Assembly: GCF_014696105.1 (NCBI RefSeq) | Contig: NZ_JACJPO010000020.1 | Coordinates: 1-64,000 of the forward strand | Reading direction: 5' to 3' | DNA length: 64,000 bases | Source: Microcoleus sp. FACHB-1515 | Lineage (GTDB): Bacteria; Cyanobacteriota; Cyanobacteriia; Elainellales; Elainellaceae | Shown here: piece after piece, positions 7,136 through 57,133 of the stretch | How positions within the stretch are numbered: position 1 is the first letter of the stretch | Layout of the letters: the number at the start of each line of letters is the position of its first letter | Notes under the pieces: model-generated | The model's database searches: none | What the model was told of the DNA's origin: nothing | What the model saw: the letters and a program-made list of their open reading frames with translations, nothing else | Made by a program: the position numbers and the translations under genes

Positions 7136-9139
7136 CGCGGCTTCCGGTTCGATCGCCTCTTCTAAATCGTCCGCTTCGACGGCAAGCTGCGAGCGCAACA
7201 GTTCGCCTGTGCGGTGCAGACCTTGCGCCAGAGTGATGCCTTCTTGAGTCAGCACGCCGATCGCCTGATTGGGAGATTCGCGAGTCACGATCGGCAACTG
7301 ATGCAGGCCGCGCGTTGCCATCCGTGCGATCGCCTCACTCAGCAGTTCATCGGGGTAGGCCAGCAAAATATCAGTGGTGCAAAGCTGGGCGATCGGGGTT
7401 TCCAATAGCGCTTTGGTTTCGCCTTCGGATTTGGCTCGCATCAGCAGGCGATCGACATCGTGCAGCGTCACCAGTCCGACCAGTCGATCGTCCGCCATCA
7501 CAAACGCCGTGTGGCAGCGCTGTTCCACCAAGGCAGTCCCGACGCTTGCCAGCGTCGCGTCACCAGCAACTTGCAGCGGCAAAGGTTGCAGCGCAGCGGC
7601 CACCTGCAAGGGCGGCAGTTCGTCCCAAGCGGAATGCAAATCTGACCGGAGCGGCAACGGCTCAGGCGCAGGACGAGGCGGAACCGATTCACGGACAGGT
7701 TCACGAAGCTCGGCAGAATCGGATTCAGGCAGTTCTGTGGCAGGGTCGATCGCTCCGGCAGGCAAAACGACAGACTTGCTCGGCTCACTTCGTTTGACAG
7801 GCTCCAGCCATTCCACCAGCCAAACGCTCAGTCCGACCGCAGCCATCAGCGGCAGCACAATTCGATAGTCCTGCGTCAGTTCAAACAAAAGCAAAATTGC
7901 CGTCAGGGGCGCACGGACGCTGCCCGCCAGCACAGCCGCCATCCCGACCATTGCATAAGCAGGGGGTGAAGCCATGTAGGGGTGAAGCATGGGAAGCGCG
8001 ATCGCCAACACCTTGCCGTAAGTCGCGCCCAATGAGGCACCGAGAAACAAAGCAGGCGCAAAAATCCCGCCGACAAAGCCGCTGCCATAGCTCACAGCCG
8101 TCATGATCAGCTTCACGACCAGCAGGGCGATTACCAACGACAGCGAAAACTGTACATCTTGCAGCATCGATTCGACCGTCTCATAGCCGACGCCCAAGAT
8201 CTGCGGGAGCCACAGGGCAACGATTCCCAGGCACAAACCACCCAAGACCGGATGCAGCGGTTGGGGAATGCGAACCAGCCACGCGAACGCGGGAACTTGC
8301 CCCTGAAAGCACTGCTGCGATCGCCGCAACGCCTGCACATACAGCCGCGACACTAAACTTGCCAACACGCCCAAACCCACATACAGCGGTAGTTCCAGCA
8401 GGCTACGCACCTCGTAAGCAGGCAGGGCAAAGGCAGGCTGTGAACCCAGTCCAATCTGCGCGATCCAAGCGGCCACAACAGCAGCCAGCAGCACAACGCT
8501 GACGGCAGACGTGGCGAACGTCGTGCCCAAAACCACTTCGAGGGCGAAAAACACTCCGGCGATCGGCGCATTGAACCCCGCTGCCAATCCTGCCGCCGCG
8601 CCTGCGCCCAGCAAAAGCCGCTGCCGTTCCTGCGAAACTTGCAAAATCTGTCCCAGCAGCAGGCCGAACGTTGCGCCAATTTCCACGCTGGGTCCTTCGG
8701 GGCCGAGGGAAGCACCGCTGCCGAGCGAGATCGAGGCAGCGACCATCTTGGCGATCGGCTTGAGCGGCAAAAATTCCCGTCCGCTCTGGACGGCTTCCAT
8801 CAGCGTACTCAGTCCAGGGCCAAAGTCGCGAATCCGCCAGCGCAACAGGCAAATTACCAAGCCGCCCAAAATTGGAATGAAGGCCAGCGTCCACGCGCCC
8901 CAAACGGAAAGGAAGCTCAGCACTTCCCCCAGCATCAAATTGTGAATGAGGTGAATCAGCGCTCGAAACACGACAACGCCGACGCCTGCACCTGTGCCAA
9001 TTAACACAGCCAACAGCAGCACGACGGATTCGGGCGACGGTTGCAGGCGCGTGAGAAGATGCTTCAAACGTGAAGCTGGATTGCTGGGCGCAACAGGCTC
9101 AGGCGAAACCAGCCCCTTAGCGGCGGGGGTGGAAGTCAT
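7127..9139 (-). CDS. ClC-family chloride channel/antiporter with CBS pair
   Basis: Membrane chloride transporter of 670 residues. The ClC pore occupies about residues 35-460 with the anion-selectivity motif GPEGPSVEIG, which keeps the gating glutamate, and GFVGGIFAPALFLGA. A Pro/Glu-rich linker (about 465-510) leads to two CBS modules (about 520-570 and 585-640) that in this family bind adenine nucleotides and tune gating. Whether it is a channel or a proton-coupled exchanger cannot be told from the sequence. The prokaryotic members most studied lack the CBS tail, while many cyanobacterial ones have it. Confidence 0.92.
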   Translation of the reverse strand: MTSTPAAKGLVSPEPVAPSNPASRLKHLLTRLQPSPESVVLLLAVLIGTGAGVGVVVFRALIHLIHNLMLGEVLSFLSVWGAWTLAFIPILGGLVICLLRWRIRDFGPGLSTLMEAVQSGREFLPLKPIAKMVAASISLGSGASLGPEGPSVEIGATFGLLLGQILQVSQERQRLLLGAGAAAGLAAGFNAPIAGVFFALEVVLGTTFATSAVSVVLLAAVVAAWIAQIGLGSQPAFALPAYEVRSLLELPLYVGLGVLASLVSRLYVQALRRSQQCFQGQVPAFAWLVRIPQPLHPVLGGLCLGIVALWLPQILGVGYETVESMLQDVQFSLSLVIALLVVKLIMTAVSYGSGFVGGIFAPALFLGASLGATYGKVLAIALPMLHPYMASPPAYAMVGMAAVLAGSVRAPLTAILLLFELTQDYRIVLPLMAAVGLSVWLVEWLEPVKRSEPSKSVVLPAGAIDPATELPESDSAELREPVRESVPPRPAPEPLPLRSDLHSAWDELPPLQVAAALQPLPLQVAGDATLASVGTALVEQRCHTAFVMADDRLVGLVTLHDVDRLLMRAKSEGETKALLETPIAQLCTTDILLAYPDELLSEAIARMATRGLHQLPIVTRESPNQAIGVLTQEGITLAQGLHRTGELLRSQLAVEADDLEEAIEPEAALL

Positions 9140-9272
9140 GGACGAGACCCTAGGGCAAGCGGCACGATCGCGTTCCGTAAGCTGCGCGATCGAAAGTAGC
9201 AGTGCTGTTTTCTATTGTCGGGGATACTGCCCTGGATGTTGCCACTGATTCCAGAAAAAGTGGCACGATCGA

Positions 9273-10337
9273 CTACACCGAAGCTTCGATCGGCGCGGTC
9301 AATCGCTGCAAGGCGGCAATCAGCTTTTCGACGCTGGCCGGATCGGTATCAAACGCCGTCACAAGTCGCGCCGTTGTGGTGTTGCCTGTTTGATCAGGGT
9401 AGAAATCGGCGTAGAACTGGAAGCCTTCAGATTGCAAAGATTGAGCGATCGCAGTCGGAAACTGCACAAACACTTCATTCGCCTCAACCGGAAAACACAA
9501 GCGCACATTCGGCAATTCGGCAAATCCCTGCGCCAATCGTGCCGCCATCTGATTCGCGTGAGCGGCGTGACGCAGCCACAAATCGTTTTGCAAATAAGCT
9601 TCAAGCTGAGCCGACAAAAAGCGCATTTTCGAGAACAGATGCCCGCCCCGCTTGCGGCGATACTCAAAATCTTTTGCCAGGTCGCGATCGAAAAACACAA
9701 CCGCTTCTGCGGCCATCGCGCCGTTTTTCGTCGCGCCAAACGACAACACATCCACGCCCGATCGCCAGGTAATGTCAGCCGGAGAACAGCCCAAGCTGAC
9801 GATCGCATTGGCAAATCTCGCCCCGTCCATGTGCAGCTTCAGGCCGTGTGACTGCGCCACCTGTGCGATCGCCGCCACTTCCGATCGCGAATAGACGGTT
9901 CCCGCCTCGGTTGCCTGCGTAATGCTGATTGCCGCTGGCTGCACGTGATGCACCACGCCTGCTCCGGCTTTTGCCAGGACAACCGCGAGATCGTCCCCAG
10001 TGAGTTTGCCGTTGGGGGTCGATCGCGTCGCCAGCTTTGCGCCTCCGGTGAAAAATTCGGGTGCGCCGCATTCGTCCACGTGAATATGCGCGTCGCTGTG
10101 GCAGTAGATCGCGCCGTAGACCGGGGAAATGGCTGAAAGGGCGATCGCATTGGCTGCCGATCCCGTCGCAACGGGGAAAACGGCGACCGGAGTTTCAAAT
10201 AAGTCGCTAAATTGCGTTTCAAGCCGCTGGGTAATTTCGTCGTTGCCGTAGGGCATGGCCGCGCCCGCATTGGCCTGTGCGATCGCCGCCAAAATTTCCG
10301 GTGCGATGCCCGTGACGTTATCACTGCAAAAATTCAT
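9273..10337 (-). CDS. ltaE: Low-specificity L-threonine aldolase
   Basis: PLP enzyme splitting L-threonine or allo-threonine into glycine and acetaldehyde. The 354 residues begin MNFCSDNVTG, the usual aldolase N-terminus. The PLP-binding lysine lies in SFGATKNG near residue 210, preceded by the LHMDGARFANA motif that contacts the cofactor. Related beta-eliminating lyases share the fold, but the HIHVDECGAPEFFTGGAKL segment is characteristic of threonine aldolases. It lies on the same strand as the ClC gene with a gap of about 130 bp. Confidence 0.93.
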   Translation of the reverse strand: MNFCSDNVTGIAPEILAAIAQANAGAAMPYGNDEITQRLETQFSDLFETPVAVFPVATGSAANAIALSAISPVYGAIYCHSDAHIHVDECGAPEFFTGGAKLATRSTPNGKLTGDDLAVVLAKAGAGVVHHVQPAAISITQATEAGTVYSRSEVAAIAQVAQSHGLKLHMDGARFANAIVSLGCSPADITWRSGVDVLSFGATKNGAMAAEAVVFFDRDLAKDFEYRRKRGGHLFSKMRFLSAQLEAYLQNDLWLRHAAHANQMAARLAQGFAELPNVRLCFPVEANEVFVQFPTAIAQSLQSEGFQFYADFYPDQTGNTTTARLVTAFDTDPASVEKLIAALQRLTAPIEASV

Positions 10338-43398: not shown

Positions 43399-44034
43399 AT
43401 GGCACTTCGACTAGGCGATACAGTTCCCAATTTCACGCAAGATTCTTCCGAAGGCACGATCGACTTTTACGATTGGGCAGGCGATAGCTGGGTAGTGCTG
43501 TTTTCGCACCCCGCCGACTATACGCCCGTTTGCACGACTGAGCTTGGCATGGTGGCTAAGATCAAGCCCGAATTTGACAAGCGCAATGCCAAAGTGATTG
43601 CGCTAAGCGTGGATACCGCCGAATCGCACAAAGGCTGGATTGGCGACATCAACGAAACGCAAAGCACCACGCTCAACTATCCGATCTTGGCCGACCCCGA
43701 TCGCAAAGTGTCGGATCTCTACGACATGATTCACCCGAACGCCAACAATACGCTGACGGTGCGATCGGTGTTCATCATCGACCCGCAAAAGAAACTGCGC
43801 CTCACCTTCACCTATCCGGCCAGTACAGGACGCAATTTTGACGAAATTCTGCGCGTCCTCGATTCGCTTCAGCTTACCGATGGCTACAGCGTGGCAACTC
43901 CGGCCAACTGGGAAGATGGCGGCGACTGCGTCGTTGTGCCGTCGATTCCGACCGACCAAGCTCGCGAGAAATTCCCCAAAGGCGTCACGGAAATTAAGCC
44001 CTATCTGCGGATGACGCCGCAGCCGAACAAGTAA
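43399..44034 (+). CDS. 1-Cys peroxiredoxin (Prx6 type)
   Basis: 211 residues from ATG 43399 with AGGA about 12 bp upstream. Peroxidatic cysteine in HPADYTPVCTTELG near residue 45. The C-terminal half follows the Prx6/1-Cys pattern (PANWEDGGDCVVVPSI, LRMTPQPNK). It reduces hydrogen and alkyl peroxides. A second cysteine near the C-terminus (DGGDC) is typical of the subgroup but not a resolving residue in the 2-Cys sense. A strong terminator follows. Confidence 0.94.
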   Translation: MALRLGDTVPNFTQDSSEGTIDFYDWAGDSWVVLFSHPADYTPVCTTELGMVAKIKPEFDKRNAKVIALSVDTAESHKGWIGDINETQSTTLNYPILADPDRKVSDLYDMIHPNANNTLTVRSVFIIDPQKKLRLTFTYPASTGRNFDEILRVLDSLQLTDGYSVATPANWEDGGDCVVVPSIPTDQAREKFPKGVTEIKPYLRMTPQPNK

Positions 44035-44055
44035 TTTGTGCTGACTTGATTGGCT

Positions 44056-44086
44056 AAGCCCAGTGAGCGATCGCTGGGCTTTTTTG
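44056..44086 (+). terminator. Intrinsic terminator after the peroxiredoxin gene
   Basis: AAGCCCAG pairs with CTGGGCTT (8 bp) around a 10-base loop containing HIP1-like sequence, followed by a T-run. It lies about 22 bp after the stop. Confidence 0.9.
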
Positions 44087-44108
44087 CATGAATTGTCCTT
44101 GCCTTCTT

Positions 44109-45074
44109 CTAACTTCCAATCCCTGCTTCTGCCAAGGTTTGTTCAGTGCGGCGGGGAATGCTGTAGGTGAGGAAGTCGTGCGCCATGATCGTGTTGGGAA
44201 AGATCGATCGCGCTTCGGTCAGCAGATCTTCAAGCTGGATAGCATTGCCGGGAGCATAGCGCGGACTGAAGTGGGTCATGATCAATTGCTTCACCTGAGC
44301 GAGGAGGGCGACTTGGGCGGCCATTGTGGAGGTGGAGTGTAAGCGCTGGTAGGCGAGTTCAGCGTCTTGGTGGGCGAAGGTCGCTTCGTGGACGAGAACA
44401 TCGGCATCCTGGGAGAGCGGGATGGCGTTTTCGGTGAAGATGGTGTCGGTGCAGTAAACGAATTTGCGTCCGATTTCGGTTTGGCCGCAGAGGGTGGAGC
44501 CGTCGATCGATCGACCGTCCGGTAAAGTGACAGTTTCGCCGCGCTTCAGTTTGCCGTAGAGGGGGCCAGAAGGAATGCCAAGTTCGATCGCTTTTTCGAC
44601 GTTGAAGCGTCCAGGTTTGTCTTTTTCGGTGACGCGATAGCCAAAAGCGGGGACGCGATGTTCCAGGGCGGCACAGCTTACGGTGAATTCGTCATCTTCA
44701 AACACGATGCCGGGCTGAACGGTGTGCACCTTGACAGGGTAGCCAAAGTGAGTTTGGGAAAATTTTCCGGCTGCCCGCAAGTAGTCTTCAAGGCGGGGCG
44801 GACCGTAGATGTCGATGCGGCTGGGATTTCCGGCGAGTCCGCAGCTTGCCAGCAGTCCCATCAGGCCGTAGATATGGTCTCCGTGCATGTGGGTGATGAA
44901 GATGCGGGTGATTTGACTGATGCGAACGTCGCTGCGTAGAATTTGGTGCTGTGTGCCTTCGCCGCAGTCAAACAGCCACACCTCCGATCGCTGCGGCAGC
45001 CTCAGCGCCAAGCTGGAGACATTGCGCGATCGCGTCGGCACGCCAGAACTGGTTCCCAAAAACGTAATTTGCAC
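44109..45074 (-). CDS. rnz: Ribonuclease Z
   Basis: Endonuclease that removes the 3' trailer of tRNA precursors. 321 residues from GTG 45074. The beta-lactamase fold carries [10 protein letters not shown], the metal motif [13 protein letters not shown], and later metal ligands in [16 protein letters not shown] and the family [12 protein letters not shown] ending. The gene converges on the peroxiredoxin terminator. Confidence 0.96.
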
Positions 45075-45334
45075 GGTTGACGCTGATTAAATCACCTTTT
45101 TCCATAGTAGTTCGTGGCAATTGCAGCGCAAACATCGCGGAAACATCCAAGCGATCGCCTCAGTCTCGGCATTCGGTGATTCACAATTGCCAAACTTTCA
45201 ATGCAAAATTCGCCGCAAGTTCACAGAACTTGCAGTAGATTGATTAAGATTGCAACGAAATTGTGAACTTGACACCTGGCGATCGACAGACAATCGCTGC
45301 ACAACCACAGCTTCTTTAGGAGGAGTGAAGATTC

Positions 45335-46564
45335 ATGACGGCTGCACAAACCGCTATCCCCTCGTCCCGCTGGCTGCAAACCGTTTTGCGTTTGGGCAAA
45401 CAATCTTGGTGGCTGACGCTGCTGCTCTGGCTGGTTTCCCTCACACCTGCCAAAGCCGCAGAGCTAGAGTTGCGCGTGGCGATCGAGCAGGATGCCAGTT
45501 CGGTTGTGGTCGGCAGTTCCACGCCTGCCGTTGTCAAAGATGCCCAAGGTCAAGTGCTGGCAAGATTGGGAGCCAGTCAAGCCGTCGAAGCGCGATCGGA
45601 CGGCAATGGCGCAATCTTGATCGACAACGGCCAGCAAAGCTATCGCACTGGGCAGCTTTGGGTTGAGCCGAGCGGTGAAAGCGGATTGGTTTCGATCGGA
45701 ACTCAGGTCAGCAACAGCAAATGGTATCGCGGACGCACCCTCGTGGTTCCCACCGCTGACGGCTTGACAGCAGTAAACTACGTTGATCTTGAAGAATATC
45801 TTTACAGCGTTGTTGGCGGCGAAATGCCCACCAACTGGAGCCTAGAAGCGCTCAAAGCCCAAGCCGTTGCCGCCCGCTCCTACGCGCTCTATCAGCGACA
45901 AAGCGGCGCAAACAGCGTTTTTGATATGGGCGACACGACCCGCTGGCAGTTTTATCAAGGCGTGGAAGAAGAAGCACCCAGCACGATCGCCGCCGTCAAT
46001 GCCACAGCCGGACAAGTCCTCACCTACCAAGGACAAATCATCAACGCCGTCTTCCACTCGTCTTCGGGCGGCCACACGGAAAACTCAGAAGATGTCTGGG
46101 TGCAAGCTCTTCCTTACCTCAGAGCCGTTGAAGACTACGACACCGACGCTCCCGTTTTTCAATGGCAAGAAACCTTTAGCGCCGACCAAATGAGCGCTCG
46201 CATTACCGGAATCGGCACGGTTTTGGAGTTTCGACCTGTGCAAATGATTGGCGATCGCCGCGTCCGCCGCATGCTGGTTGTCGGCAGTGCCGGAACTCGC
46301 GAAATGACGGGCGACCAAATCCGCCAAGCCCTCAACCTCCGCAGCACCTATTTCCGCATCGCCCCCAACCTGGGATCGATCGCCAGCACTGAATCCGTCC
46401 CCTCCACTCCCGTTGGCTTTCAAGTCGTTGGACGCGGTTTCGGACACGGCCTCGGCATGAGCCAGTATGGAGCCTATGCCCTCGCCCGCCAAGGCAACAA
46501 CTATCAGCAGATTCTCGCTCACTACTACCAGCGCACTCAGCTTTCTCGAATCCAAGTGCGTTGA
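45335..46564 (+). CDS. SpoIID/LytB-domain protein
   Basis: 409 residues. AGGAGG lies 9 bp before the ATG. The signal peptide (about 1-42) ends LTPAKAAEL. A beta-rich segment precedes the SpoIID domain (about 130-400), with VNYVDLEEYLYSVVGGEMPTNWSLEALKAQAVAARSYA split over the start, HSSSGGHTENSEDVW, and the end motif GRGFGHGLGMSQYGAYALA. Bacillus SpoIID is a lytic transglycosylase; cyanobacterial forms are uncharacterised and likely act on peptidoglycan in the periplasm. Confidence 0.87.
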   Translation: MTAAQTAIPSSRWLQTVLRLGKQSWWLTLLLWLVSLTPAKAAELELRVAIEQDASSVVVGSSTPAVVKDAQGQVLARLGASQAVEARSDGNGAILIDNGQQSYRTGQLWVEPSGESGLVSIGTQVSNSKWYRGRTLVVPTADGLTAVNYVDLEEYLYSVVGGEMPTNWSLEALKAQAVAARSYALYQRQSGANSVFDMGDTTRWQFYQGVEEEAPSTIAAVNATAGQVLTYQGQIINAVFHSSSGGHTENSEDVWVQALPYLRAVEDYDTDAPVFQWQETFSADQMSARITGIGTVLEFRPVQMIGDRRVRRMLVVGSAGTREMTGDQIRQALNLRSTYFRIAPNLGSIASTESVPSTPVGFQVVGRGFGHGLGMSQYGAYALARQGNNYQQILAHYYQRTQLSRIQVR

Positions 46565-46608
46565 GGAGTATCGAGGCGTCGGTAGAAAAGCGTTCGGGGG
46601 TTAGGGTC

Positions 46609-46752
46609 TAGGGTGTGTTTTCAAACCTCTTGGTGGTTAGATTTCTCGACTGAGATCCCCCTAAATCCCTCTTGATAAGAGGGACTTTGAGGATGACTCC
46701 CTCCTTTGGAAGGAGGATTGGGGAGGATCATGCGGTTTGAAAACACGACCTA
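46609..46752. mobile_element. MITE-like element with terminal inverted repeats and TA flanks
   Basis: GTGTTTTCAAACC (46615-46627) and its exact complement (46734-46746) form the ends; extending outward, the two arms match over 20 bp with two mismatches. TA lies at both outer edges (46609-46610, 46751-46752), as with IS630/Tc1-type insertions. The inside holds two smaller palindromes rich in CCCTC/GAGGG and no gene. The length is about 140 bp between the flanking TAs. It sits between two convergent genes. Confidence 0.7.
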
Positions 46753-46844
46753 GGGATTTAGGAAGCCAAGCAACAACAGAAGGTCTTAGACAGCGCACCG
46801 AGCAATCCCTTTGGAAGTACAGAGGGTGAAATCCTTGCAAAAAC

Positions 46845-48041
46845 TTACCCCTCACTATCCACTCCGCGCAGGCGAAACAGCAGTAATTGTGTCACTTGCT
46901 CATCATTAAAGTTGTCGTCACTCACCAAAATCAAACTAATCGATCGATCGTTCAACTGCGGCCCGATCGCCATCCCCTCCAAATTATCTAGCTCAATTCC
47001 TAATGTCCCCAAATCGAGCACAAGCTGCTTGCGAATCGGATTAATGCCCGTTAGATCGCTTGGCAGCCGCACAATTCCTGAAGTATCCGTTGCGCCGCCT
47101 GTGGCAATCTGATAGATTCTCGCGCCCGATCCCGCCAATCCATAAGAGCGCTCTAGCGTCAGAAAATGTCCGGCCTGATCGAGAACGACCAGTTCAGTTA
47201 AGCCATTGGTGGCTGCACCCAGCGGCGGCGGATCGATCGGATAGAGATGTTCCGAAATCAGCGTCGTTTGCGGTTCACCGATTAAATAGTGCAGAAAGCG
47301 GCTGTAGCGGGGGCGATACCGTTCCGGGAGCGCTTCGCGATCGACCTCCTCCGAATCGAGATCCTGCACCAAAATATCTTCCGTCGCCGCAAACAACCGA
47401 AACGGCTCTAGCCAAGCGGTACTGTAGCCACCTGGATTAATCGTCAGCGCTTCAAAGCCAAGGTTATCTTGAACGCCCTGCGGCTGGTCGTTCACGGTTT
47501 TGGGCAAAAATCGATCGCCAATTCGCAGTTGCTCTCGCCGCTCTCCGGTTGCCAAATCAAATTCATCGATAAACGGCGCAACACCGTCTCGTGCTACGCC
47601 CTCACTGGAGATGAACACGGATTGACGGGGAGAAAGCGCGATGCCCTCCGGATCGATCGACCCCCTGGCAAAACTTTCCCCATCCGCCTGCAACGTCGTC
47701 ACCTGCTCAAACTCGACGCTGGCAATTTGCGGCGACTCCGCAGTTTGATCGAGGTTGAGCTTCATCGTGTAGAAGCGGGCGGGAGCTTGATCGCTGCGAT
47801 CGTCCGACAGCACATAAAAGCGATCGCGCTGGCGATCGTAAGTGATACCTGACAAACCGCGCACAGGCGTTCCCTCAAAATCCGTGCGCGGCAGTTCGTA
47901 GGCTGAAAGGAAATCGATCGACAAATCAAGAAACAATCGCTCCTCGGCGCTCACACGCGGCAAACTGCAACCGGAGAGGCCAATTAGCAACAGCAGGGGC
48001 AGCAGCGATCGCAGCACAACACGCAGGAATCGGGCAAACAT
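46845..48041 (-). CDS. Lipoprotein of the phytase-esterase-like family
   Basis: 398 residues from ATG 48041. The signal (about 1-25) ends LLLIGLSGCS, a lipobox with Cys near residue 24. The rest is a beta-propeller-like domain with GLSGITYDRQRDRFYVLSDDR, IDPEGIALS, NLGFEALTINPGG and NLEGMAIGP, the pattern of secreted esterase-like/phytase-like proteins (PF13449). The enzymatic role is not shown for cyanobacteria; phosphate release is possible but not supported by other genes here. Confidence 0.8.
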   Translation of the reverse strand: MFARFLRVVLRSLLPLLLLIGLSGCSLPRVSAEERLFLDLSIDFLSAYELPRTDFEGTPVRGLSGITYDRQRDRFYVLSDDRSDQAPARFYTMKLNLDQTAESPQIASVEFEQVTTLQADGESFARGSIDPEGIALSPRQSVFISSEGVARDGVAPFIDEFDLATGERREQLRIGDRFLPKTVNDQPQGVQDNLGFEALTINPGGYSTAWLEPFRLFAATEDILVQDLDSEEVDREALPERYRPRYSRFLHYLIGEPQTTLISEHLYPIDPPPLGAATNGLTELVVLDQAGHFLTLERSYGLAGSGARIYQIATGGATDTSGIVRLPSDLTGINPIRKQLVLDLGTLGIELDNLEGMAIGPQLNDRSISLILVSDDNFNDEQVTQLLLFRLRGVDSEG

Positions 48042-48107
48042 AACAGCGCTCAAGCATCGATGCTGATTAGATTACCGCTTGCAGGTCATCCTGGCTTGAT
48101 TCGATCG

Positions 48108-49070
48108 TCAGATTTTGGCTGGCAGACTGTCTCGCAGCGTGGCCTCGATCGATCGCGGTTGCCAGCCGAGTTCCCTTCTGGCCTTGCTGCCATCGACGCG
48201 GACACAGCGATCGTAAAGATAATGCACTCGTTCGCGGCTGATTGGCGGTTGCCAGTTGAAGATGCGCCCGATCGGGTCGAGCAGATTGCCGATCGATCGG
48301 ACGATCGGTTCTGGAATTTCACGAGGAGCCGGAATTCCCGTTTGCTGACTGAGAAAGTCGAACATCTCGCGCGTCGTCATGTCGGCAGTCGAGGCGATGT
48401 AGTGCGCTCCGGCTGGTGCTTTTTCCGCTGCCAGAATCATCAGCAAGGCCAAGTCATCGACATGGACAATTCCCGTAATGCGATCGCCGCCCGCCCACAC
48501 TTTCAGCCCGCCTTTGCAAAACTGCGCCATGACAGGACCAAAATGCGGATCGTCTGCGCCAAAAATGCCCGACGGCATGATGCTGACAACGGGTAAACCT
48601 TGGGCGACGGCTTGATTGACCAACTGCTGCGCTCGAAATTTGGTGCGATCGTAAGCCGAAGAAAAATCGGTTTGGCGGCGCTTAAAGGTTTCGTCGATCG
48701 TTTCGCCTTGCGTATCGCCATAGACGCCGATCGTGCTGCAATACACGACTTTCGCCACCTTGGCCGCCGTTGCCGCTGCCAAAACTGCCGCCGTGCCATC
48801 GACGTTGGTGCGCTCCATCTTGGCGGCATCCACCAAGCCCAACTCGACATAGGCGGCAGTGTGAAACACCCAGTCGATTCCCTGCATCGCAGTTTCGAGG
48901 GTGGTGCGATCGCAAATGTCGCCGTAGGCAAATTCGATCGGCAAATTGGCGATGCGATCGATCTGGCTCGACTTCCTCACGAATGCCGTAACCGTGTGGC
49001 CGCGATCGAGCAGCGCTTTGACCAAGTGCGATCCGGTGAAGCCGTTCGCTCCGGTGACGAGTGCTTTCAT
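48108..49070 (-). CDS. NAD-dependent epimerase/dehydratase (extended SDR)
   Basis: 320 residues. Cofactor motif VTGANGFTGSHLV, the YxxxK pair in YDRTKF, the Ser in YCSTIGVYG and the substrate-side IVHVDDLA are clear. The family includes dihydroflavonol-reductase-like and 3-beta-hydroxysteroid-dehydrogenase-like enzymes, among them CerR, a bacterial ceramide reductase. Its ATG overlaps the TGA of the upstream acyltransferase-like gene (ATGA, 49067-49070), so translation is probably coupled. Confidence 0.85.
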   Translation of the reverse strand: MKALVTGANGFTGSHLVKALLDRGHTVTAFVRKSSQIDRIANLPIEFAYGDICDRTTLETAMQGIDWVFHTAAYVELGLVDAAKMERTNVDGTAAVLAAATAAKVAKVVYCSTIGVYGDTQGETIDETFKRRQTDFSSAYDRTKFRAQQLVNQAVAQGLPVVSIMPSGIFGADDPHFGPVMAQFCKGGLKVWAGGDRITGIVHVDDLALLMILAAEKAPAGAHYIASTADMTTREMFDFLSQQTGIPAPREIPEPIVRSIGNLLDPIGRIFNWQPPISRERVHYLYDRCVRVDGSKARRELGWQPRSIEATLRDSLPAKI

Positions 49071-50209
49071 AGATTTTTTTCGTAAGCGCGATAGGTTTTG
49101 TAGATCGTGGCTCCGGTCGCTTCGATCACTTTGCGCGACGGCCAGTTATCTTCATAGACAAAGCCGAGTTCTGCCCATTGGTACGGCTTTTTGCGCTGGA
49201 TGCCGCCGTTCATGCCCAAGTGAATCAGCGCAAGTGGAACCATGCGGCGACGATGTTCCGGCAAAGAGGCGATCACTAAGACACGGGCGCGATCGATCGA
49301 GCGGCGATACCACAACAGCTTGAGAATTCCGATCAAGTCCAGCTTGCCGCCGACTCGCTTCAGCGCAATGTTGTAGTCCGGCAAGGCCATGAATAAACCG
49401 ATCAGCTTGCCTTCATATTCGGCTAGCCAAAAGATTTGCGGATCGACAACGGACTGGAGCGATCGCGCCTCTTCCATAAATTCTTCCAGCGTTCGCGGGG
49501 CAGAACTCCAGTTGTTGGCAAACGCCTCATTGAACAGGGTGTAGATCGCTTCCACATCAGCGGTAAACGCTTCGCCTTTGAGATTGAGCGGGCGAAACTG
49601 AACGCCGGACTTGCTGGCGATCCGGTAGCCCTTCTCGAATTCTGGCGGCAAAGGTCGATCGAGCGGCAGCTTGTAGGCATACGCATCTTTCGCTTTCTCC
49701 CAGCCGTCCCGCTCCAAAAATTCTCCGTAGTAGGGCGGATTGTAGGGCATCATCAGCAGCGGCGGCGAGTCGAAGCCTTCGGCCAGCAGCAAGCAGCGAT
49801 TGTGAGTGGATAGATCAATTGGCCCCCGCACTCTGGTCATGCCCTGCGATCGCAGCCAGTCACAAGCTGCCGCGAAAAGAGCCTGCGCGATCGCAAAATC
49901 TTCGATGCACTCGAAATAGCCAAACACACCGATCGATTGCTGTTCGCGATCGACTAAGCGCTGATTCACAGCGGCCACAATTCGCCCGACCGGAACGTTA
50001 TCTTGAACGGCGATGAACGCTTGCAGCCGTCCGTATTCGCGAAAGCCATTGTCGGGCGCTAGCTCTTTGGCGATGCTGCTGCGGATCGGCGGAACCCAGT
50101 TGGGATCGGTTTGGTAGACGCGCTGCGGAACATCGAGAAAGCGATCGAGATCAGCAGATTCGATCGCTTGAATTTGAATTGAGGCAGAAACGGCTTGAGT
50201 CGCATCCAT
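49067..50209 (-). CDS. GNAT-like protein of the DPNWVPP family
   Basis: 380 residues from ATG 50209. N-terminal YQTDPNWVPPIRSSIAKEL and VGRIVAAVNQRLV define a large bacterial family with a GNAT-like fold, followed by GPIDLSTHNRCLLLAEGFDSPPLLMMPYNPPYY and the C-terminal WAELGFVYEDNWPSRKVIEATGATIYKTYRAYEK. From memory, the bacterial ceramide synthase of Caulobacter belongs here; most members are uncharacterised. The gene overlaps the epimerase by 4 bp. A perfect 9-bp inverted repeat lies at its 5' side. Confidence 0.75.
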   Translation of the reverse strand: MDATQAVSASIQIQAIESADLDRFLDVPQRVYQTDPNWVPPIRSSIAKELAPDNGFREYGRLQAFIAVQDNVPVGRIVAAVNQRLVDREQQSIGVFGYFECIEDFAIAQALFAAACDWLRSQGMTRVRGPIDLSTHNRCLLLAEGFDSPPLLMMPYNPPYYGEFLERDGWEKAKDAYAYKLPLDRPLPPEFEKGYRIASKSGVQFRPLNLKGEAFTADVEAIYTLFNEAFANNWSSAPRTLEEFMEEARSLQSVVDPQIFWLAEYEGKLIGLFMALPDYNIALKRVGGKLDLIGILKLLWYRRSIDRARVLVIASLPEHRRRMVPLALIHLGMNGGIQRKKPYQWAELGFVYEDNWPSRKVIEATGATIYKTYRAYEKNL

Positions 50210-50228
50210 AATCTTAAAAACGCGAAAT

Positions 50229-50259
50229 GGTAGAGACACTATAAACCAGCGTCTCTACC
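50229..50259. repeat. Inverted repeat between the WGxxGxxG gene and the GNAT-like gene
   Basis: GGTAGAGAC (50229-50237) and GTCTCTACC (50251-50259) are exact complements around 13 bases. GTAGAGAC palindromes occur widely in cyanobacterial genomes. In the direction of transcription the stem is followed by ATTTCGCGTTTTT, so it could terminate the WGxxGxxG gene transcript. Confidence 0.6.
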
Positions 50260-50326
50260 AGCAGATTCTACCTGGATTGCGATCGTTCCCGTTCGCCATT
50301 ACTTCGCCGGGAGCGATCGAGCGAAC

Positions 50327-50803
50327 TTAGTAGCGGTTCGTCGTGGTCGATCGAACAGCCGGATCTTCGTAAGCGGTCACGGTGCGCTTGCGGCGACCGA
50401 ACAGACCAAACAGACCGAGCAGACCCAACAGACCCCAATCTCCATCCGAGAAGTTGTTGTCGGTGGTTTCATCAACCGCCTCATCTGCAACTTGTCCAGC
50501 ATCGTTAGCAGCATTGCCAACAGCGGCTCCAGCATCATTCGCAGCATTGCCAGCGGCTTGTCCGGCGTCGTTCACGGCGTCACCAACGGCTTGTCCGGGT
50601 GCAGCAGGGCTGACGGTGGCGTCAGGAGAAGGCACAGTTGCCGGATCGCTGGTGGCAGGATTTGTGTTGGTAGTTGCAGCGCTGCCGCCTGCGTTGCCCG
50701 CAGGAGCGGTGGTGGTGGCCGAAGCGGAAAGAGTCGCGGGCACAACGGCCAAGCCAAGCGTCAATGCAGCCGCACCAGCCAATTTGCTAACAGAGCGTTT
50801 CAT
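50327..50803 (-). CDS. Secreted Ala/Asn-rich WGxxGxxG-CTERM protein
   Basis: 158 residues. Signal peptide about 1-30 (SKLAGAAALTLGLAVVPATLSASA). The middle repeats an Ala/Asn/Asp/Gly module (GNAANDAG, about 11 residues) four or five times. The C-terminus has DWGLLGLLGLFGLFGRRKR, a Trp-Gly, short hydrophobic stretch and basic cluster, the layout of WGxxGxxG-CTERM sorting signals, followed by a 20-residue tail. Likely anchored at the envelope and processed. Function unknown. Confidence 0.75.
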   Translation of the reverse strand: MKRSVSKLAGAAALTLGLAVVPATLSASATTTAPAGNAGGSAATTNTNPATSDPATVPSPDATVSPAAPGQAVGDAVNDAGQAAGNAANDAGAAVGNAANDAGQVADEAVDETTDNNFSDGDWGLLGLLGLFGLFGRRKRTVTAYEDPAVRSTTTNRY

Positions 50804-50982
50804 AATTTTGGTTCCTCATTAAGTATTTGTACGCTTTGTCTCTACGTTAACGATCCCCGATTGCAGTCAACTCACTCAAGAGAATGAATCGATCGATTCA
50901 CCTCCTCCTGCCATAGGTAGATCGTGAAAAAATTCGCGGCAATCGCCTGCTCAACTCAGTTGCAGTTGAGCGATCGAATCAT

Positions 50983-51855
50983 TCAAGGATTGCAGAATGC
51001 ACAGTGCATCGGGTCAGCAGTCTGCACCCCATCAGGAAACAAAGTCTCTTGCGAAAATTCGCAGCGCTGGCAGCGGGCACGAATCGATCGCGTCAAACTC
51101 GTCGGCTGACCACACCATCCGCAGGGCAGTCCGGGAAGTCGATCGATCGCTGCAAATCCGGGCGCACTGCATTTTGGGCAAATCTGTTGCAGCTTGCTGA
51201 CCAAGTCTTGAGTAGCACGAGCGATCGCCAGCATTCGCGTCGGATTGTAGAGCGCTCGCATATCCGTTTCCAGCATGACAATTCCATCTTGCTGCAAGCA
51301 GCGGTCAACGGCGGCTCGTAGATCTCTACAGCGCGTAATTCCTTTGAAGACTTCGCCTCCGGGCGTTTTGACAATCACGGCATGGCTGGGATATCCGACC
51401 TGCTGCAAAAAGGCTTCCACTTCATCTGGCGATCGAATCGTCTCGCGGCGAAAATTTGTCTCGACCGTGAGATCTTCACCCACGACAATAAATTCCTGTC
51501 CGTCACGGCGATCGAGCAGCACCACCATCTCGCGATCGCAGGGCAGATACGGCATAACAGGATGGGGGCCAAAGCTGCCTTCGCTCGCGATCGCCAAATC
51601 GCCGCCTACTAGTTCTAGCCCAGCCCGCGCTTTGATCAAAGCAGTGGTGCGCTGGTCGGCAGGGCGCGGCCAATTTCCGGCAAACGTGCCAAAGCGATCG
51701 CTATCAAAGCCCTCTGGGAGGACGACTTGCACTCCCAGCGCAGCTTCAACAATTGGTGCGATCGCTTCTTCTTTGCGGTGCATCGTTGCCAGAACGAGTG
51801 GCCGCGCCTTGAACCAGGTTTTGAGCAACTGTGAAGCCTTACTCGGCGTCATCAT
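50983..51855 (-). CDS. DUF6671-like protein with C-terminal zinc ribbons, end of the nrt operon
   Basis: 290 residues. An N-terminal domain (about 15-205) has ATMHRKEEAIAPIVEAALG and ASEGSFGPHP, which I associate with DUF6671. The C-terminus has four CxxC pairs (CPKC, CGWC, CQRC, CAFC), enough for two zinc ribbons. Function unknown. Its start lies 17 bp inside the end of nrtD, so it is cotranscribed with and probably translationally coupled to the nitrate transporter. There are two adjacent ATG codons; the first is used here. Confidence 0.75.
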   Translation of the reverse strand: MMTPSKASQLLKTWFKARPLVLATMHRKEEAIAPIVEAALGVQVVLPEGFDSDRFGTFAGNWPRPADQRTTALIKARAGLELVGGDLAIASEGSFGPHPVMPYLPCDREMVVLLDRRDGQEFIVVGEDLTVETNFRRETIRSPDEVEAFLQQVGYPSHAVIVKTPGGEVFKGITRCRDLRAAVDRCLQQDGIVMLETDMRALYNPTRMLAIARATQDLVSKLQQICPKCSAPGFAAIDRLPGLPCGWCGQPTSLTRSIRARCQRCEFSQETLFPDGVQTADPMHCAFCNP

Positions 51856-52702
51856 CGTGAGCGTAGCGACGATAGAGGTAATCTAGCGCGTAGTTGCGGA
51901 GGTTGTAGAATTCCGGGTCTTCCATGATCCGGGCGCGATCGCGCGGACGCGGAAAGGGAATATCGATGATTTCACCGATCGTCGCGGCAGGACCGTTCGT
52001 CATCATGATCAGGCGATCGGCCAGGAACAGCGCTTCGTCAATGTCGTGCGTGATCATCAGAACGGTGCACTTGTGGTCGTTCCAGATTTTCAGCAGTTCT
52101 TCTTGCAGTTCTTCCTTGGTGATCGCGTCGAGTGCGCCAAACGGTTCATCCAGAATCAGCACTTCCGGACGGATGGCAAGGGCACGCGCGATCGCAACCC
52201 GCTGCTTCATTCCACCCGATAGCTGCGGCGGCTTTTTGTCGGCAGCATCGGCCAAGCCCACCATTGCCAGGTGTTCCCGCACGATCGCGGCCTTTTCGCC
52301 TTGCGACTTGTTCGGGAAGACCTGATCGACGCCGAGGTAGATATTCTCGAAGGCAGTCAGCCAGGGCAGCAGGGCATAGCCTTGGAAGACAACCATGCGA
52401 TCGGGACCGGGTTTCGTGATGCGCTGACCGCGCAGACGCACTTCTCCCGTCGTCGGAATGTTGAAGCCCGACACCATGTTCAGCAGGGTGGTTTTGCCGC
52501 AGCCAGAGTGTCCGATCAGGCAGATGAATTCGCCTTCTTTAATCTCAGTGCTGATATTTTCAAGAACGGTGTAGCTGCCTGTCGGTGTGGGATAGACTTT
52601 ACTGACGTTATCGATCGCCAAAAATTCGCTGCGATCGACGGTTGCGGAAGCTTGAGTTTGCGCGATCGATTGGGTCATGTCGGTCGTTTTGATAGTCTGC
52701 AT
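51839..52702 (-). CDS. nrtD: Nitrate ABC transporter ATPase NrtD
   Basis: 287 residues from ATG 52702, preceded by AAGG; the frame is open 25 codons upstream through the hairpin, which is not protein-like. Walker A GHSGCGKTTLLN, signature LSGGMKQR, Walker B VLILDEPFGALD and the switch His in THDIDEALFL are present. No extra domain. It forms the heterodimeric ATPase with NrtC on the NrtB permease. The related bicarbonate transporter Cmp has the same layout; the NtcA box on nrtA favours nitrate. Confidence 0.93.
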   Translation of the reverse strand: MQTIKTTDMTQSIAQTQASATVDRSEFLAIDNVSKVYPTPTGSYTVLENISTEIKEGEFICLIGHSGCGKTTLLNMVSGFNIPTTGEVRLRGQRITKPGPDRMVVFQGYALLPWLTAFENIYLGVDQVFPNKSQGEKAAIVREHLAMVGLADAADKKPPQLSGGMKQRVAIARALAIRPEVLILDEPFGALDAITKEELQEELLKIWNDHKCTVLMITHDIDEALFLADRLIMMTNGPAATIGEIIDIPFPRPRDRARIMEDPEFYNLRNYALDYLYRRYAHDDDAE

Positions 52703-52749
52703 GGTTAGCCTTATGCTTCTTAATTTCGCATGAGTTCCGAATCCTTGAA

Positions 52750-52780
52750 AGGGTGGATGAAAAATTCGTTCATCCACCCT
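52750..52780 (-). promoter_or_regulatory. Perfect hairpin between nrtC and nrtD
   Basis: AGGGTGGATGA and TCATCCACCCT are exact complements of 11 bp around a 9-base loop, starting 14 bases after the nrtC stop. In the direction of transcription it is followed by TTCAAGG, so it lacks a full T-run. Likely an RNA element for stability or partial termination. Confidence 0.75.
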
Positions 52781-52794
52781 TACTTTGTCGTTCG

Positions 52795-54795
52795 TTAAAC
52801 CGCGACTCTGGGCGCGTCAAGATGGACTTCGGCCATGTAGATGTCGTGCTTGATCTTGAGGCTGTTGAGGTAGCCGATCGGGTCATCGGTGTCGAACTGA
52901 ACGCCGTCAAACAGCTTGATCGGACCGCGCTTGTAGCTGACATCGAATGTACCGAGTTCACGGGCAGCGGTGCTGAACACACCGACGCGACAAACGCGCT
53001 CTAGCACTTCCACCCAGTTGCGCGGGAACGGCGTATCGCCCCAACGTGCCATCTGCGTCATGATCCACAACTGCTCGGTGCGGCTCGGACGATTCACGCC
53101 AACGCCGTGAAACTGGTGGTGGGCAAATTCGCGCATCGGGTGGTCAAGCGTGCAGACGTTCGGATTGTCGTCGCCAAGCTGGATGTAGCTCAGGTCAGTG
53201 CTGAGATATTCGCGCTGGGCAAGAATTCGGCGGACTTCCTCAGCATTATTCGGATCGGCGCAGAACTGGCAAGCTTCCAGCAATGCTTTGACAAGAGCGA
53301 TGTGCGTATTTGGATAGGCGTTTGCCCAATCTTCGCGGACGCCCAGCACTTTACCGGGGTGGCCGAGCCAGATTTCCAGGTCGGTGGCGATCGTAAACCC
53401 AATGCCTTCCACCGCTGCCCGCAAATTCCAGGGTTCCCCGACGCAGTAGCCGTCGATGTTTCCGGCTTGCAGGTTCGACACCATCTGAGCAGGCGGAATC
53501 GTCGTCAGGTTCACGTCCTTATCTGGGTTGATGCCGCCCGCTGCCAGCCAGTAGCGCAAGAGCAAATTGTGCATTGAGGCCGGATGCACCATGCCGAACG
53601 TGTGTCGCTGATCCGGCGTTTCTAGCAGCATTCGCTTCAGGGCAGGCAGGCTGTGAACGCCTTGATCATAGAAGCGCTTGGCGAGGGTAATGGCGTTGCC
53701 GTTGCGCGTCACGGTCAAGGAGGTAACAACAGGCATCGGCTTATTGTCGTTGCCGCCCAAGGTCATCCACAGCGGCAGACCAGAAGGCATTTGGGCTGCA
53801 TCGAGGTAGCCGCCTGCAATTCCGTCCCGGATACCGCGCCAGCTTGCTTCCCGCACTAGCGAGACTTCTTCAAGACCGTGCTTGACGAAGAAGCCTTTTT
53901 CCTTAGCGATCGCCAGCGGTGCACAAGCCGTCAGCGGCACAAACCCGATTTCCAAATTCACCTTCTCCAAGCCGTGACGCGCGATCGCCCCTTGCTTGCG
54001 TGCCCGAAGCTGCTTGATCCGCTTCTGTTGATTCAAGAAGTAGATAATTTCGCTGCGATAGCTGTAGTAGCTGGGATGGTTGACGACTTCCATGCGCTGA
54101 CGCGGGCGGGGAATGTCGATTTCGAGAATCTGGCCGATGTTCGATTCGGGGCCGTTCGTGAGCATGACGACGCGATCGCTCAGCAGCAGCGCTTCATCGA
54201 CATCGTGCGTCACCATTACGGCTGTGACGTGGTTCTCGTCGCAGATTTTCATCAGTTGCTCTTGCAGATTGCCTCTGGTGAGCGCATCGAGAGCGCCGAA
54301 CGGCTCATCGAGCAGCAGCAGTTTCGGACGGATAGCAAGGGCACGAGCGATCGCCACCCGCTGCTTCATCCCCCCCGAAAGCTGTCCGGGCGGCTTGTCG
54401 GCAGCGTGACCCAAACCGACGAGCTTAATGTGCTTTTCAACCACATCGCGGCGCTCTTCCGGTGAGAGATCCGAGAGGACTTCATCAACGGCCAGCGCGA
54501 TGTTTTGGCGGACGGTCAGCCAAGGCAGGAGCGAATAGTTTTGGAAGACGACCATGCGATCGGGTCCGGGACGCTTCACCTGCTCACTTTCGAGCAAGAC
54601 GGTTCCCTCGGTCGGCAAATCCAAACCTGCAATCATGTTCAGGAGGGTGGACTTGCCGCAGCCAGAGTGTCCAATTAGCGAGACAAATTCACCTTTGCGA
54701 ATTTGTAAATCAATGCCTTTGAGGGCGATATACTCTCCGCCTCCCGCGAGCGGAAAGGTTTTTTCGAGTTGGTCTACAGCGACGAATGCAGTCAT
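52795..54795 (-). CDS. nrtC: Nitrate ABC transporter ATPase fused to a binding-protein-like domain, NrtC
   Basis: 666 residues. ATPase domain about 1-255: GHSGCGKSTLLN, LSGGMKQR, LLLLDEPFGALD, THDVDEALLL. From about residue 280 the protein resembles NrtA (GFVPLTACAPLAIAKEKGFF, GYCVGEPWNLRA, VRRILAQREYLSTD). In Synechococcus the C-terminal domain of NrtC mediates inhibition of uptake by ammonium; this role is inferred here. It is the second ATPase together with NrtD. Confidence 0.95.
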   Translation of the reverse strand: MTAFVAVDQLEKTFPLAGGGEYIALKGIDLQIRKGEFVSLIGHSGCGKSTLLNMIAGLDLPTEGTVLLESEQVKRPGPDRMVVFQNYSLLPWLTVRQNIALAVDEVLSDLSPEERRDVVEKHIKLVGLGHAADKPPGQLSGGMKQRVAIARALAIRPKLLLLDEPFGALDALTRGNLQEQLMKICDENHVTAVMVTHDVDEALLLSDRVVMLTNGPESNIGQILEIDIPRPRQRMEVVNHPSYYSYRSEIIYFLNQQKRIKQLRARKQGAIARHGLEKVNLEIGFVPLTACAPLAIAKEKGFFVKHGLEEVSLVREASWRGIRDGIAGGYLDAAQMPSGLPLWMTLGGNDNKPMPVVTSLTVTRNGNAITLAKRFYDQGVHSLPALKRMLLETPDQRHTFGMVHPASMHNLLLRYWLAAGGINPDKDVNLTTIPPAQMVSNLQAGNIDGYCVGEPWNLRAAVEGIGFTIATDLEIWLGHPGKVLGVREDWANAYPNTHIALVKALLEACQFCADPNNAEEVRRILAQREYLSTDLSYIQLGDDNPNVCTLDHPMREFAHHQFHGVGVNRPSRTEQLWIMTQMARWGDTPFPRNWVEVLERVCRVGVFSTAARELGTFDVSYKRGPIKLFDGVQFDTDDPIGYLNSLKIKHDIYMAEVHLDAPRVAV

Positions 54796-54834
54796 GGCAC
54801 TTGAGGAATGAGGAGTTGGCGATTAGGAGTTAGG

Positions 54835-54871
54835 GATGTTTGGGAGGCATCGATCGCACCTCCCAAACATC
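54835..54871 (-). promoter_or_regulatory. Perfect hairpin between nrtB and nrtC
   Basis: GATGTTTGGGAGG and CCTCCCAAACATC are exact complements of 13 bp around an 11-base loop, beginning 7 bases after the nrtB stop codon. No T-run follows. Together with the nrtC-nrtD hairpin it forms a pattern of stems right after stop codons in this operon. Confidence 0.75.
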
Positions 54872-54878
54872 ATCGGAA

Positions 54879-55703
54879 CTAGCGGCGATCGCTTGCCACA
54901 ATTTTGTTTTGCAGCCAAGCCATCGATCGATCGAGAATCAAACCCACCGCACCGATGTAGAACAGCGCCAAAATAATTTCGCTGACGAAGTTGTTTTGGT
55001 AGGCATCCCAGATGAAAAAGCCAATTCCCACAATTCCCGACATCACGATTTCAGCGGCGATAATTGCCAGCCAAGCCAGACCGATCGCAATCCGCAAACC
55101 TGTGAAGATGTAAGGCAGCGCAGAGGGCAACAGAATCTTGAAGAAGAACTTTTGGTTCGAGAGTTGCAGCACGCGGCGGACGTTGATGTAGTCTTGCGGA
55201 ATTTGCTGAACGCCGACTGTCGTGTTAATCAGAATCGGCCAGATCGCCGTAATGAAAATCACGAACAAAGCAGCGGGTTCGTTTTGCTGCAAAGCAGCCA
55301 GCGCGATCGGCACCCAGGCCAAAGGCGGAACCGTCCGCAAAAATTGGAAGATCGGGTCAAGGCCTTTGTTAATCAGCGGATTGAGGCCGATGACGATGCC
55401 GACCGCGATGCCCACGATCGCCGCCAACGAATAGCCGATCGCAACGCGCTGCAAGCTCGCCAAGGTCTGCCAGAACAAGCCTTTGTCCAAACCGCCGCGA
55501 TCGAAGAACGGATACAGCAGCATTTCGCGGGTGCGCTCATCGGTGATCAAGCTGGCAGGTCCCGGCAGGCGGGTCAGGCCAGAGCTTGAGAAAAGCTGCC
55601 AGATGATAAGGAACAGAGCGATCGCAACCAGGGGCGGCAGTACGTTGTTGACTACCTTGCGAAAGTCGATCGAGCGTGAGGGGCGGCGTGAAACGGCAAC
55701 CAT
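54879..55703 (-). CDS. nrtB: Nitrate ABC transporter permease NrtB
   Basis: 274 residues, six to seven hydrophobic helices. The EAA loop that contacts the ATPases is IGLAWLAIIAAEIVMSGIVGIG near residue 205. The N-terminus (about 1-20) is basic. It forms the membrane part of the nitrate/nitrite transporter with NrtA, NrtC and NrtD. A 68-bp gap separates it from nrtA. Confidence 0.94.
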   Translation of the reverse strand: MVAVSRRPSRSIDFRKVVNNVLPPLVAIALFLIIWQLFSSSGLTRLPGPASLITDERTREMLLYPFFDRGGLDKGLFWQTLASLQRVAIGYSLAAIVGIAVGIVIGLNPLINKGLDPIFQFLRTVPPLAWVPIALAALQQNEPAALFVIFITAIWPILINTTVGVQQIPQDYINVRRVLQLSNQKFFFKILLPSALPYIFTGLRIAIGLAWLAIIAAEIVMSGIVGIGFFIWDAYQNNFVSEIILALFYIGAVGLILDRSMAWLQNKIVASDRR

Positions 55704-55771
55704 TTTCTAAGTTCTCCAGTAATTAAGCAGTGAGGAAGCGCGATCCAGGTGAATGAGTGTGAATTTCAGAG

Positions 55772-57133
55772 TTAAACGCGCTTGATTTCCAAGCTTTCGA
55801 GATAGGCCTTCGGATTGGCCGGATCGAATTCCTTACCGTCGAAGAAGCGCTCGACACCTCGCGAGGTGCTGGTGGGAATATCGGCGGCGGCAACACCTAA
55901 AGACTGAGCCGCTTCTTTCCACAAATCTTCGCGGTTGACCGCGTTGATGATGCGATCGGCGTTGTCCAAGGTGCTTTCTGGCATGAAGCCCCAGCGGACG
56001 CTTTCGGTGATGAACCAGAGGTCGTGGCTCTTGTAGGGATAGGAGACGCTGCCGCGACCGTCTTTCCAGTAGAGGGGGCCGCTCTGGAAGTTGTTCACCT
56101 CCGGCTTGCCGTCGCCCATTTTGTAGACACCTTTCAGCGGTCCTTCCAAAACTTCTTTGGGCAGGTTAAAGAACTCACGGCCAGCAAGAATGGTTGCCAG
56201 TTCAGCGCGATTGGCCGGATCATCGCACCACTGCTGCGCTTCCATCACAGCCTTCAAAACGGCCTGAGTTGCTTTGGGGTGCTGATCGACCCAGTCACCT
56301 CGAATTGCCAGGTATTCTTCAGGGTGGAACTGCCACATTTCTGCGGTCAAACCTGCCAAAAAGCCAATGTTGTCGTTGACAATTCGGTAAGGCCAGGGGT
56401 CGCCTGTGCTGAAGGCATCCATTGTGCCCGTCTGCATGTTTGCCACTGTTTGAGCAGCCGGAACAACCAGCAGTTGCACATCAGTATCCGGATTAATTCC
56501 GCCTGCGGCAAACCAATAGCGAATCCAAAATTCTTGGTTGGCTTGAGGGAAAGTATAGGCAGCTTTGAAGGGAGTTCCAGCCGATTTGAGTCCGAGAATG
56601 TAATCTCTGGCGTTCGTCAGGTCGAGACCGATATTTTTGCCTGTGTGCTTGTTGGCGATCGCAATGCCATTACCCTGCGTATTCAGTTGCGCCAGCACAT
56701 ACATTGGGAGTTTGCGATTGCCCTTTGTGATCAAGCCTTCGCTAATCAAGTGCGGCATCGGCATTTGCCACAGTCCGCCATCAATGCCGCCGCCTGCTGA
56801 GCCGATTTCGACGTTGTCACGCGCTGCACCCCAGTTTGCCTGTTTCGCAACTGTGGCTCCGGTCATGCCATATTTGGCAAAGAATCCTTTTTCTTGAGCG
56901 ACAATCAGCGGCGCACCTTCAACGATCGGAATGAAGCCGAGTTGAATGCTGGTCACTTCAGGCGCATCCGCAGGATTGACGTTCACAGCGGGAGCCGCAG
57001 CATTGTTGGTAGGCGCGGCGCTGTCAGTGTCCGAAGGCGGATTGCCAACGCAGCCCTTGAGCAAAACGGAGCCTGCAACGGATGCGCCAGCAGTTGCCAA
57101 GAATTTCCGACGAGAATACTGAGAAAACGACAT
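55772..57133 (-). CDS. nrtA: Nitrate-binding lipoprotein NrtA
   Basis: 453 residues. The N-terminus [20 protein letters not shown] has a twin-arginine motif, and LLKGC is a lipobox with Cys near residue 28, so it should be exported folded and lipid-anchored. The linker is Ala/Asn/Pro-rich. The binding-protein domain (about 60-440) includes [33 protein letters not shown] and [11 protein letters not shown]. CmpA (bicarbonate) has the same fold; the exact NtcA box upstream supports nitrate. Confidence 0.93.

Follow-up and report, generated by a model that had tools for sequence, protein, structure and literature searches.

The Caulobacter ceramide system comprises a serine palmitoyltransferase (SPT, CC_1162), AcpR (CC_1163), CerR/epi (CC_1164), AasR (CC_1165) and bCerS/aca (CC_1154). 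CC_1154 and its E. coli counterpart yghO/ECD_02850 encode the acyl-CoA N-acyltransferase of dihydroceramide synthesis, and CC_1164/ECD_02852 the dehydrogenase; the N-acyltransferase is listed alongside spt, acpR, aasR and epi (PMC9386255). CerR is homologous to NDUFA9, and in Caulobacter acylation has been proposed to precede reduction (PMC11087976). Sphingolipid production by cyanobacteria has been uncertain so far. Reports of cyanobacterial ceramides are limited to two isolated compounds, from Scytonema julianum and Moorea producens; to the authors' knowledge, sphingolipid biosynthesis had not yet been studied in any cyanobacterium (PMC8895605). The same work compared 60 AONS sequences (29 cyanobacterial) of 313-409 residues and found that the only AONS of Nostoc punctiforme, Npun_R3567, belongs to the BioF group and is inactive as an SPT, yielding no 3-ketosphinganine (PMC8895605).

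Here we describe two genes in a 64,000-nucleotide window of Microcoleus sp. FACHB-1515 (NZ_JACJPO010000020.1, contig C13 below), which probably encode the second (N-acylation) and third (reduction) steps of a ceramide-type lipid pathway in cyanobacteria. Both are on the minus strand. The upstream gene (49067..50209, ATG at 50209) encodes a 380-aa GNAT-like N-acyltransferase of the bCerS/YghO family that contains TDPNWVPP, and the downstream gene (48108..49070, ATG at 49070) a 320-aa extended SDR, a candidate 3-keto reductase. The plus strand reads TCAT at 49067-49070, so the stop codon of the GNAT gene and the start codon of the SDR gene overlap as ATGA (49067..49070, minus strand), and translational coupling would be expected. 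An earlier sequence-only reading had reported this overlap, and both open reading frames and the overlap can indeed be read in the sequence. It had placed the pair at 49067-50209, an interval that covers the GNAT gene and the overlap and leaves the rest of the SDR gene outside. A small, unrelated protein gene (50327-50803, minus strand) lies 117 bases upstream of the GNAT gene, and a Phytase-like esterase gene (48053-46845, minus strand) follows the SDR gene on the same strand; with these neighbors, GNAT and SDR form a bicistron of their own. The small protein is of a Gly/Leu-rich type, with a Gly/Ala/Asn-rich stretch, a C-terminal WGLLGLLGLFGLFGRRK motif and no Pfam match.

The window GNAT matched Pfam PF00583 (Acetyltransf_1) above the cut-off in the second half of the protein only, and the NCBIfam profile search returned no specific model. 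Over its full length it is homologous to proteins of the bacterial ceramide synthase (bCerS)/YghO family, at 29-34% identity, in a comparison set in which Sphingomonas, E. coli and Pseudomonas homologues took the place of the Caulobacter proteins. Identity to E. coli YghO was 30.0%. Against the protein in the bCerS position of Sphingomonas parapaucimobilis it was 28.9% (384 aa aligned); there, the acyltransferase gene and an SDR-ACP-SPT cluster share a replicon at a distance of about 6 kb. The nearest non-cyanobacterial GNATs, from Streptomyces, Nonomuraea and Rubrobacter, reached 33.6-34.3%, and tblastn against plasmids retrieved full-length relatives in 44 plasmid records. In the GNAT tree, the cyanobacterial clade was sister to one that combines bCerS, YghO and the operon GNATs with proteins that have no AONS gene nearby. 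Homologous GNATs with no neighboring AONS occur in Roseomonas, Diaphorobacter and a Chloroflexota plasmid. A GNAT structure prediction from eight sequences was too poor for use (mean pLDDT 53). By homology and context, the window GNAT is a member of the bCerS/YghO family and a candidate N-acyltransferase; the full-length homology and the AONS context described below uphold its original placement in the ceramide synthase family.

Several relatives had surroundings of their own. The bCerS/YghO-family genes of Roseomonas and Diaphorobacter (L026 2822-7925 and L223 4499-9915) have an LptF/LptG permease and no AONS nearby; these loci also hold CDP-alcohol phosphatidyltransferase or sterol-desaturase-family genes, and the Roseomonas copies are frequently annotated as dATP pyrophosphohydrolase. 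The window genome carries a second GNAT-like gene of the same superfamily (contig C27; L010 1318-2289; 323 aa), located in an apparent polysaccharide gene cluster among glycosyltransferase-type and flippase-type genes. It showed 25% identity over 202 aa; we rejected it as a partner in view of this location and of its grouping with other proteins in the tree.

The window SDR matched PF01370 with 135 bits. It scored 205 bits against TIGR03466 (HpnA; cut-off 368) and 158 bits against SdmB (cut-off 600), below the threshold in both cases. With the Sphingomonas CerR-position SDR it shared 28.7% identity over 223 aa; the Streptomyces SDR was a closer match, and its likeness to the CerR-position protein was no better than to other extended SDRs. 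A specific resemblance to CerR was therefore not supported: it is an ordinary extended SDR, nearest to HpnA and SdmB, with a weak relationship to every extended SDR. Since sequence alone does not make it a CerR, its assignment as a ketone reductase draws on genomic context.

As the sequence-only reading had stated, the window lacks an SPT gene: none appears in the ORF list of positions 44000-56000, and AONS-family searches of the genome found two AONS genes in all, one on contig C3 and one on C7. The C3 gene is BioF, with a BioC-like gene adjoining it. The C7 gene (164419-165804), which comes immediately after a gene for a Rieske oxygenase, is the candidate partner, so that an AONS-family gene of the kind that reading envisaged is present outside the window. 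The best solved relative of the C7 AONS is the Sphingobacterium SPT (E 1e-36). Against three NCBIfam SPT models it scored 177, 168 and 116 bits (cut-offs 640, 500 and 670). In quick trees, the cyanobacterial AONS proteins formed a clade whose branch measured 2.1-2.5 changes per site, and a separate clade united the SPTs of Proteobacteria and Bacteroidota with the AONS from the Streptomyces, Rubrobacter and Aureispira operons (SH-aLRT 97-99). A single clade of cyanobacterial AONS and SPTs was weakly rejected (AU p 0.038), a result made uncertain by the long cyanobacterial branch. The NCBIfam scores and the tree position rule out a plain SPT, and BioF is ruled out by the separate BioF beside the BioC-like gene, from both of which the C7 AONS is far removed.

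The catalytic His, Asp, His and Lys and the carboxylate-binding Arg are invariant. The PLP-phosphate motif reads NAW, versus STG[YF] in SPT (AW for GY), the loop before the carboxylate-binding Arg reads SPIWFIAKP, versus PPATP (the PAxP loop of SPT), and there are two insertions. The predicted structure (pLDDT 88) has the AONS fold and fitted the S. multivorum SPT best (Z 47.3; 381 residues at 1.8 Å), and the fits of KBL and other AONS enzymes came within Z 1; fold comparison of the model did not separate SPT from KBL, ALAS and BioF. By family score and tree, the cyanobacterial AONS proteins stand apart from the known SPT clade as a long-branched lineage of their own.

We analyzed the distribution of the three families in a phylum sample of 291 cyanobacterial genomes, using the same draw for GNAT, SDR and AONS. 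GNAT orthologues were present in 23 of the 291 genomes (57-68% identity, E <1e-143, next best 1e-50). SDR orthologues occurred in exactly the same 23 (57-71% identity, E <1e-119, no match from there to 1e-60), and this identical distribution indicates that the pairing is not due to chance. AONS orthologues (69-83% identity, E <1e-203, next best 1e-48) were found in 22 of the 23 GNAT carriers and in none of the 268 other genomes, corresponding to 17 of 18 carrier genera versus 0 of 95 others. Fisher p-values for GNAT-AONS co-occurrence, 4e-32 by genome and 3e-19 by genus, are indicative only because genomes are not independent. The carriers span 18 genera and 14 families, and three families (f2, f18 and f23) mix carriers with non-carriers, a pattern that simple descent does not fully explain. 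These results indicate that AONS, GNAT and SDR behave as one functional module.

The single carrier without the module AONS (G290) possesses GNAT, SDR and Rieske genes. The gene next to its GNAT was considered as another first enzyme and rejected, being unrelated and methyltransferase-like by eye. The same genome contains an AONS-like domain (C55:24269-25330; L238/L239) in a 2760-residue frame, probably a polyketide-synthase/AONS fusion.

GNAT and SDR lie near each other in 12 of the 23 carriers, and the 4-base overlap recurs in five genomes besides the window genome (six in all). AONS is directly upstream of GNAT in 13 genomes, with SDR next in several. A scan with generic AONS motifs yielded at least 10 named carriers, including Leptolyngbya sp. 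Heron Island J, Symploca sp. SIO2C1 and SIO2E6, Nostoc sp. WHI and Cyanosarcina radialis. Of 10 further named cyanobacterial loci among the matches listed, 6 had AONS and GNAT side by side on one strand and 7 had them within 9 kb of each other; for other AONS genes, again among the matches listed, a bCerS/YghO-family GNAT was nearby in 0 of 70.

Two additional families recurred in these neighborhoods, a Rieske oxygenase and an MFS transporter. Rieske orthologues were found in 16 genomes and MFS orthologues in 18 (the weakest MFS match being close to the threshold), all within the 23 carriers. In the window genome, the MFS and Rieske genes (L028 6788-7984, minus strand, and 8186-9334, plus strand; C7:161790-164330) adjoin the AONS gene on C7, and GNAT and SDR stand alone on C13. 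The Rieske gene scored 231 bits against SdmA, under the curated cut-off. The dedicated ACP envisaged in the sequence-only reading was not found near the module: across 31 neighborhoods of up to 20 kb (ORFs of at least 70 aa), no ACP-size or AMP-ligase family was conserved, and the neighborhood survey likewise revealed no conserved PKS or NRPS gene beside it. In one carrier (G027), a GH3-family acyl-acid amido synthetase gene (L090 12836-14536, minus strand) adjoins the module MFS gene, and another genome (G054, L092) has two ORFs similar to it; a further tailoring or fatty-acid-activating enzyme is possible.

In the pathway that we propose, the C7 AONS would join an amino acid and a fatty acyl thioester by Claisen condensation, giving a 3-keto long-chain base. 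The window GNAT would then N-acylate this base with a second acyl chain, and the window SDR would reduce the 3-keto group to a hydroxyl, presumably in that order. Cyanobacteria use mainly acyl-ACP, which makes acyl-ACP donors likely, and the donor for the AONS step is probably acyl-ACP as well. The module is compatible with serine, alanine, glycine or cysteate as the amino acid. Judging from family and linkage, our guess is that the Rieske oxygenase, whose gene is often a neighbor of the AONS gene, probably hydroxylates the product and the MFS protein probably moves it; we know of no Rieske oxygenase in any sphingolipid pathway. More tentatively, at somewhat short of even confidence, scattered cyanobacteria may make an N-acyl long-chain-base membrane lipid of their own, tailored by the Rieske oxygenase, for which the AONS became SPT-like independently. 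With an AONS partner that exists and a set that acts as a module, the earlier sphingolipid-like reading is substantially strengthened. Its support lies in the GNAT family and in an AONS partner that co-occurs and is adjacent in most carriers; the parts that fell away are an SDR of CerR type and an AONS within the SPT clade. What is left is fairly summed up as sphingolipid-like or other N-acyl lipids.

The product may be a long-chain-base lipid built on an amino acid other than serine, for example of the 1-deoxy type (alanine or glycine) or a cysteate sulfonolipid. This would involve the same three reactions and is a sub-case of the ceramide-type explanation, so that our confidences in the two overlap. 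The distance of the AONS from all characterised SPTs would fit such a lipid, as would the deviation of its PLP-phosphate motif and of the loop before the carboxylate-binding Arg from SPT, and the near-equal fit of KBL, ALAS and cysteate enzymes to the AONS model. Set against this, the S. multivorum SPT is the closest solved protein in both sequence and structure, with ties within Z 1, and we regard a non-serine lipid as quite possible, if on balance doubtful. A short- or medium-chain acylated aminoketone secondary metabolite would require an AONS that takes small or polyketide acyl groups, a Rieske enzyme for tailoring and an MFS protein for export. Rieske genes together with drug-efflux-like MFS genes are a typical feature of metabolite clusters, the distribution is patchy (23 of 291 genomes), and a condensation-domain gene follows the Streptomyces operon. 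Yet the module has no conserved PKS or NRPS gene beside it, its five families are scattered over loci in the manner of primary lipid pathways, and its acyltransferase comes from the lipid family of bCerS and YghO, which together render a secondary metabolite unlikely.

GNAT and SDR might act on something unrelated, their link to the AONS being a marker of the clade that reflects descent and not function. The distance of the pair from the AONS in the window genome and the occurrence of GNAT relatives away from AONS genes would agree with this. We consider it highly unlikely in view of the spread over 18 genera and 14 families with presence and absence inside f2, f18 and f23, the repeated adjacency in varied gene surroundings, and the independent AONS-GNAT-SDR operons in Actinomycetota. 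A role in hopanoid or sterol metabolism, in which the SDR would be a sugar epimerase of HpnA type or a sterol decarboxylase of SdmB type and the Rieske protein an SdmA-type sterol oxygenase, is suggested by the HpnA, SdmB and SdmA scores (205, 158 and 231 bits). All of these fall under the curated cut-offs, and the linked AONS and N-acyltransferase would be left unexplained. This reading of the SDR and Rieske proteins was dropped as extremely improbable because neither a squalene nor an oxidosqualene cyclase was detected in the window genome. The ceramide-type pathway remains our preferred explanation.

In searchable published work, we found no description of the module in cyanobacteria; the original bCerS survey, which lies outside that body of work, may list cyanobacteria. 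A gene set present in about 8% of sampled cyanobacterial species points to the strains worth testing and the genes worth deleting. Furthermore, ceramide-type lipids may be reached through this module by a second evolutionary route, in hosts without a eukaryotic or proteobacterial SPT.

Compared with known systems, the module AONS (about 426 aa) is a second cyanobacterial protein, distinct from Npun_R3567; as its length lies outside 313-409 residues, it was probably not among the 60 sequences of PMC8895605. The Streptomyces sp. NBC_01001 and Rubrobacter radiotolerans plasmids carry AONS-GNAT-SDR operons whose genes overlap or lie close together; GNAT and SDR follow each other as in the window, at nearly equal spacing. 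Unlike in cyanobacteria, the AONS of these operons groups with SPTs and is accompanied by neither a Rieske nor an MFS gene. In Aureispira, AONS and GNAT are adjacent with an SDR close by, and the AONS again groups with SPTs. On the Streptomyces plasmid (L027 4733-9259), a condensation-domain gene follows AONS-GNAT-SDR without a gap, and this operon is possibly sphingolipid-like with an unusual fourth enzyme. On the Rubrobacter plasmid (L222 4677-8044), the three genes are followed by an LTA synthase family gene, which suggests head-group transfer to a ceramide-type lipid. The spt-epi-yghO island of E. coli B and Pseudomonas veronii encodes a YghO that is a 30-32% full-length homologue of the window GNAT, located in P. 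veronii near an SPT scoring above the NCBIfam cut-off; this island differs from the cyanobacterial module in its gene order and in having a true SPT. The rhodobacterial sphingolipid cluster pairs SPT with a specialised ACP and an acyl-ACP synthetase, neither of which had a conserved counterpart in the 31 cyanobacterial neighborhoods. Relative to Caulobacter, the cyanobacterial AONS falls outside the SPT clade, the SDR is not specifically CerR-like, no ACP or acyl-ACP synthetase is conserved beside the genes, and the Rieske and MFS proteins are extra. What the module shares with Caulobacter is an AONS-family enzyme, a GNAT-like N-acyltransferase of the same family and an extended SDR predicted to act as the reductase.
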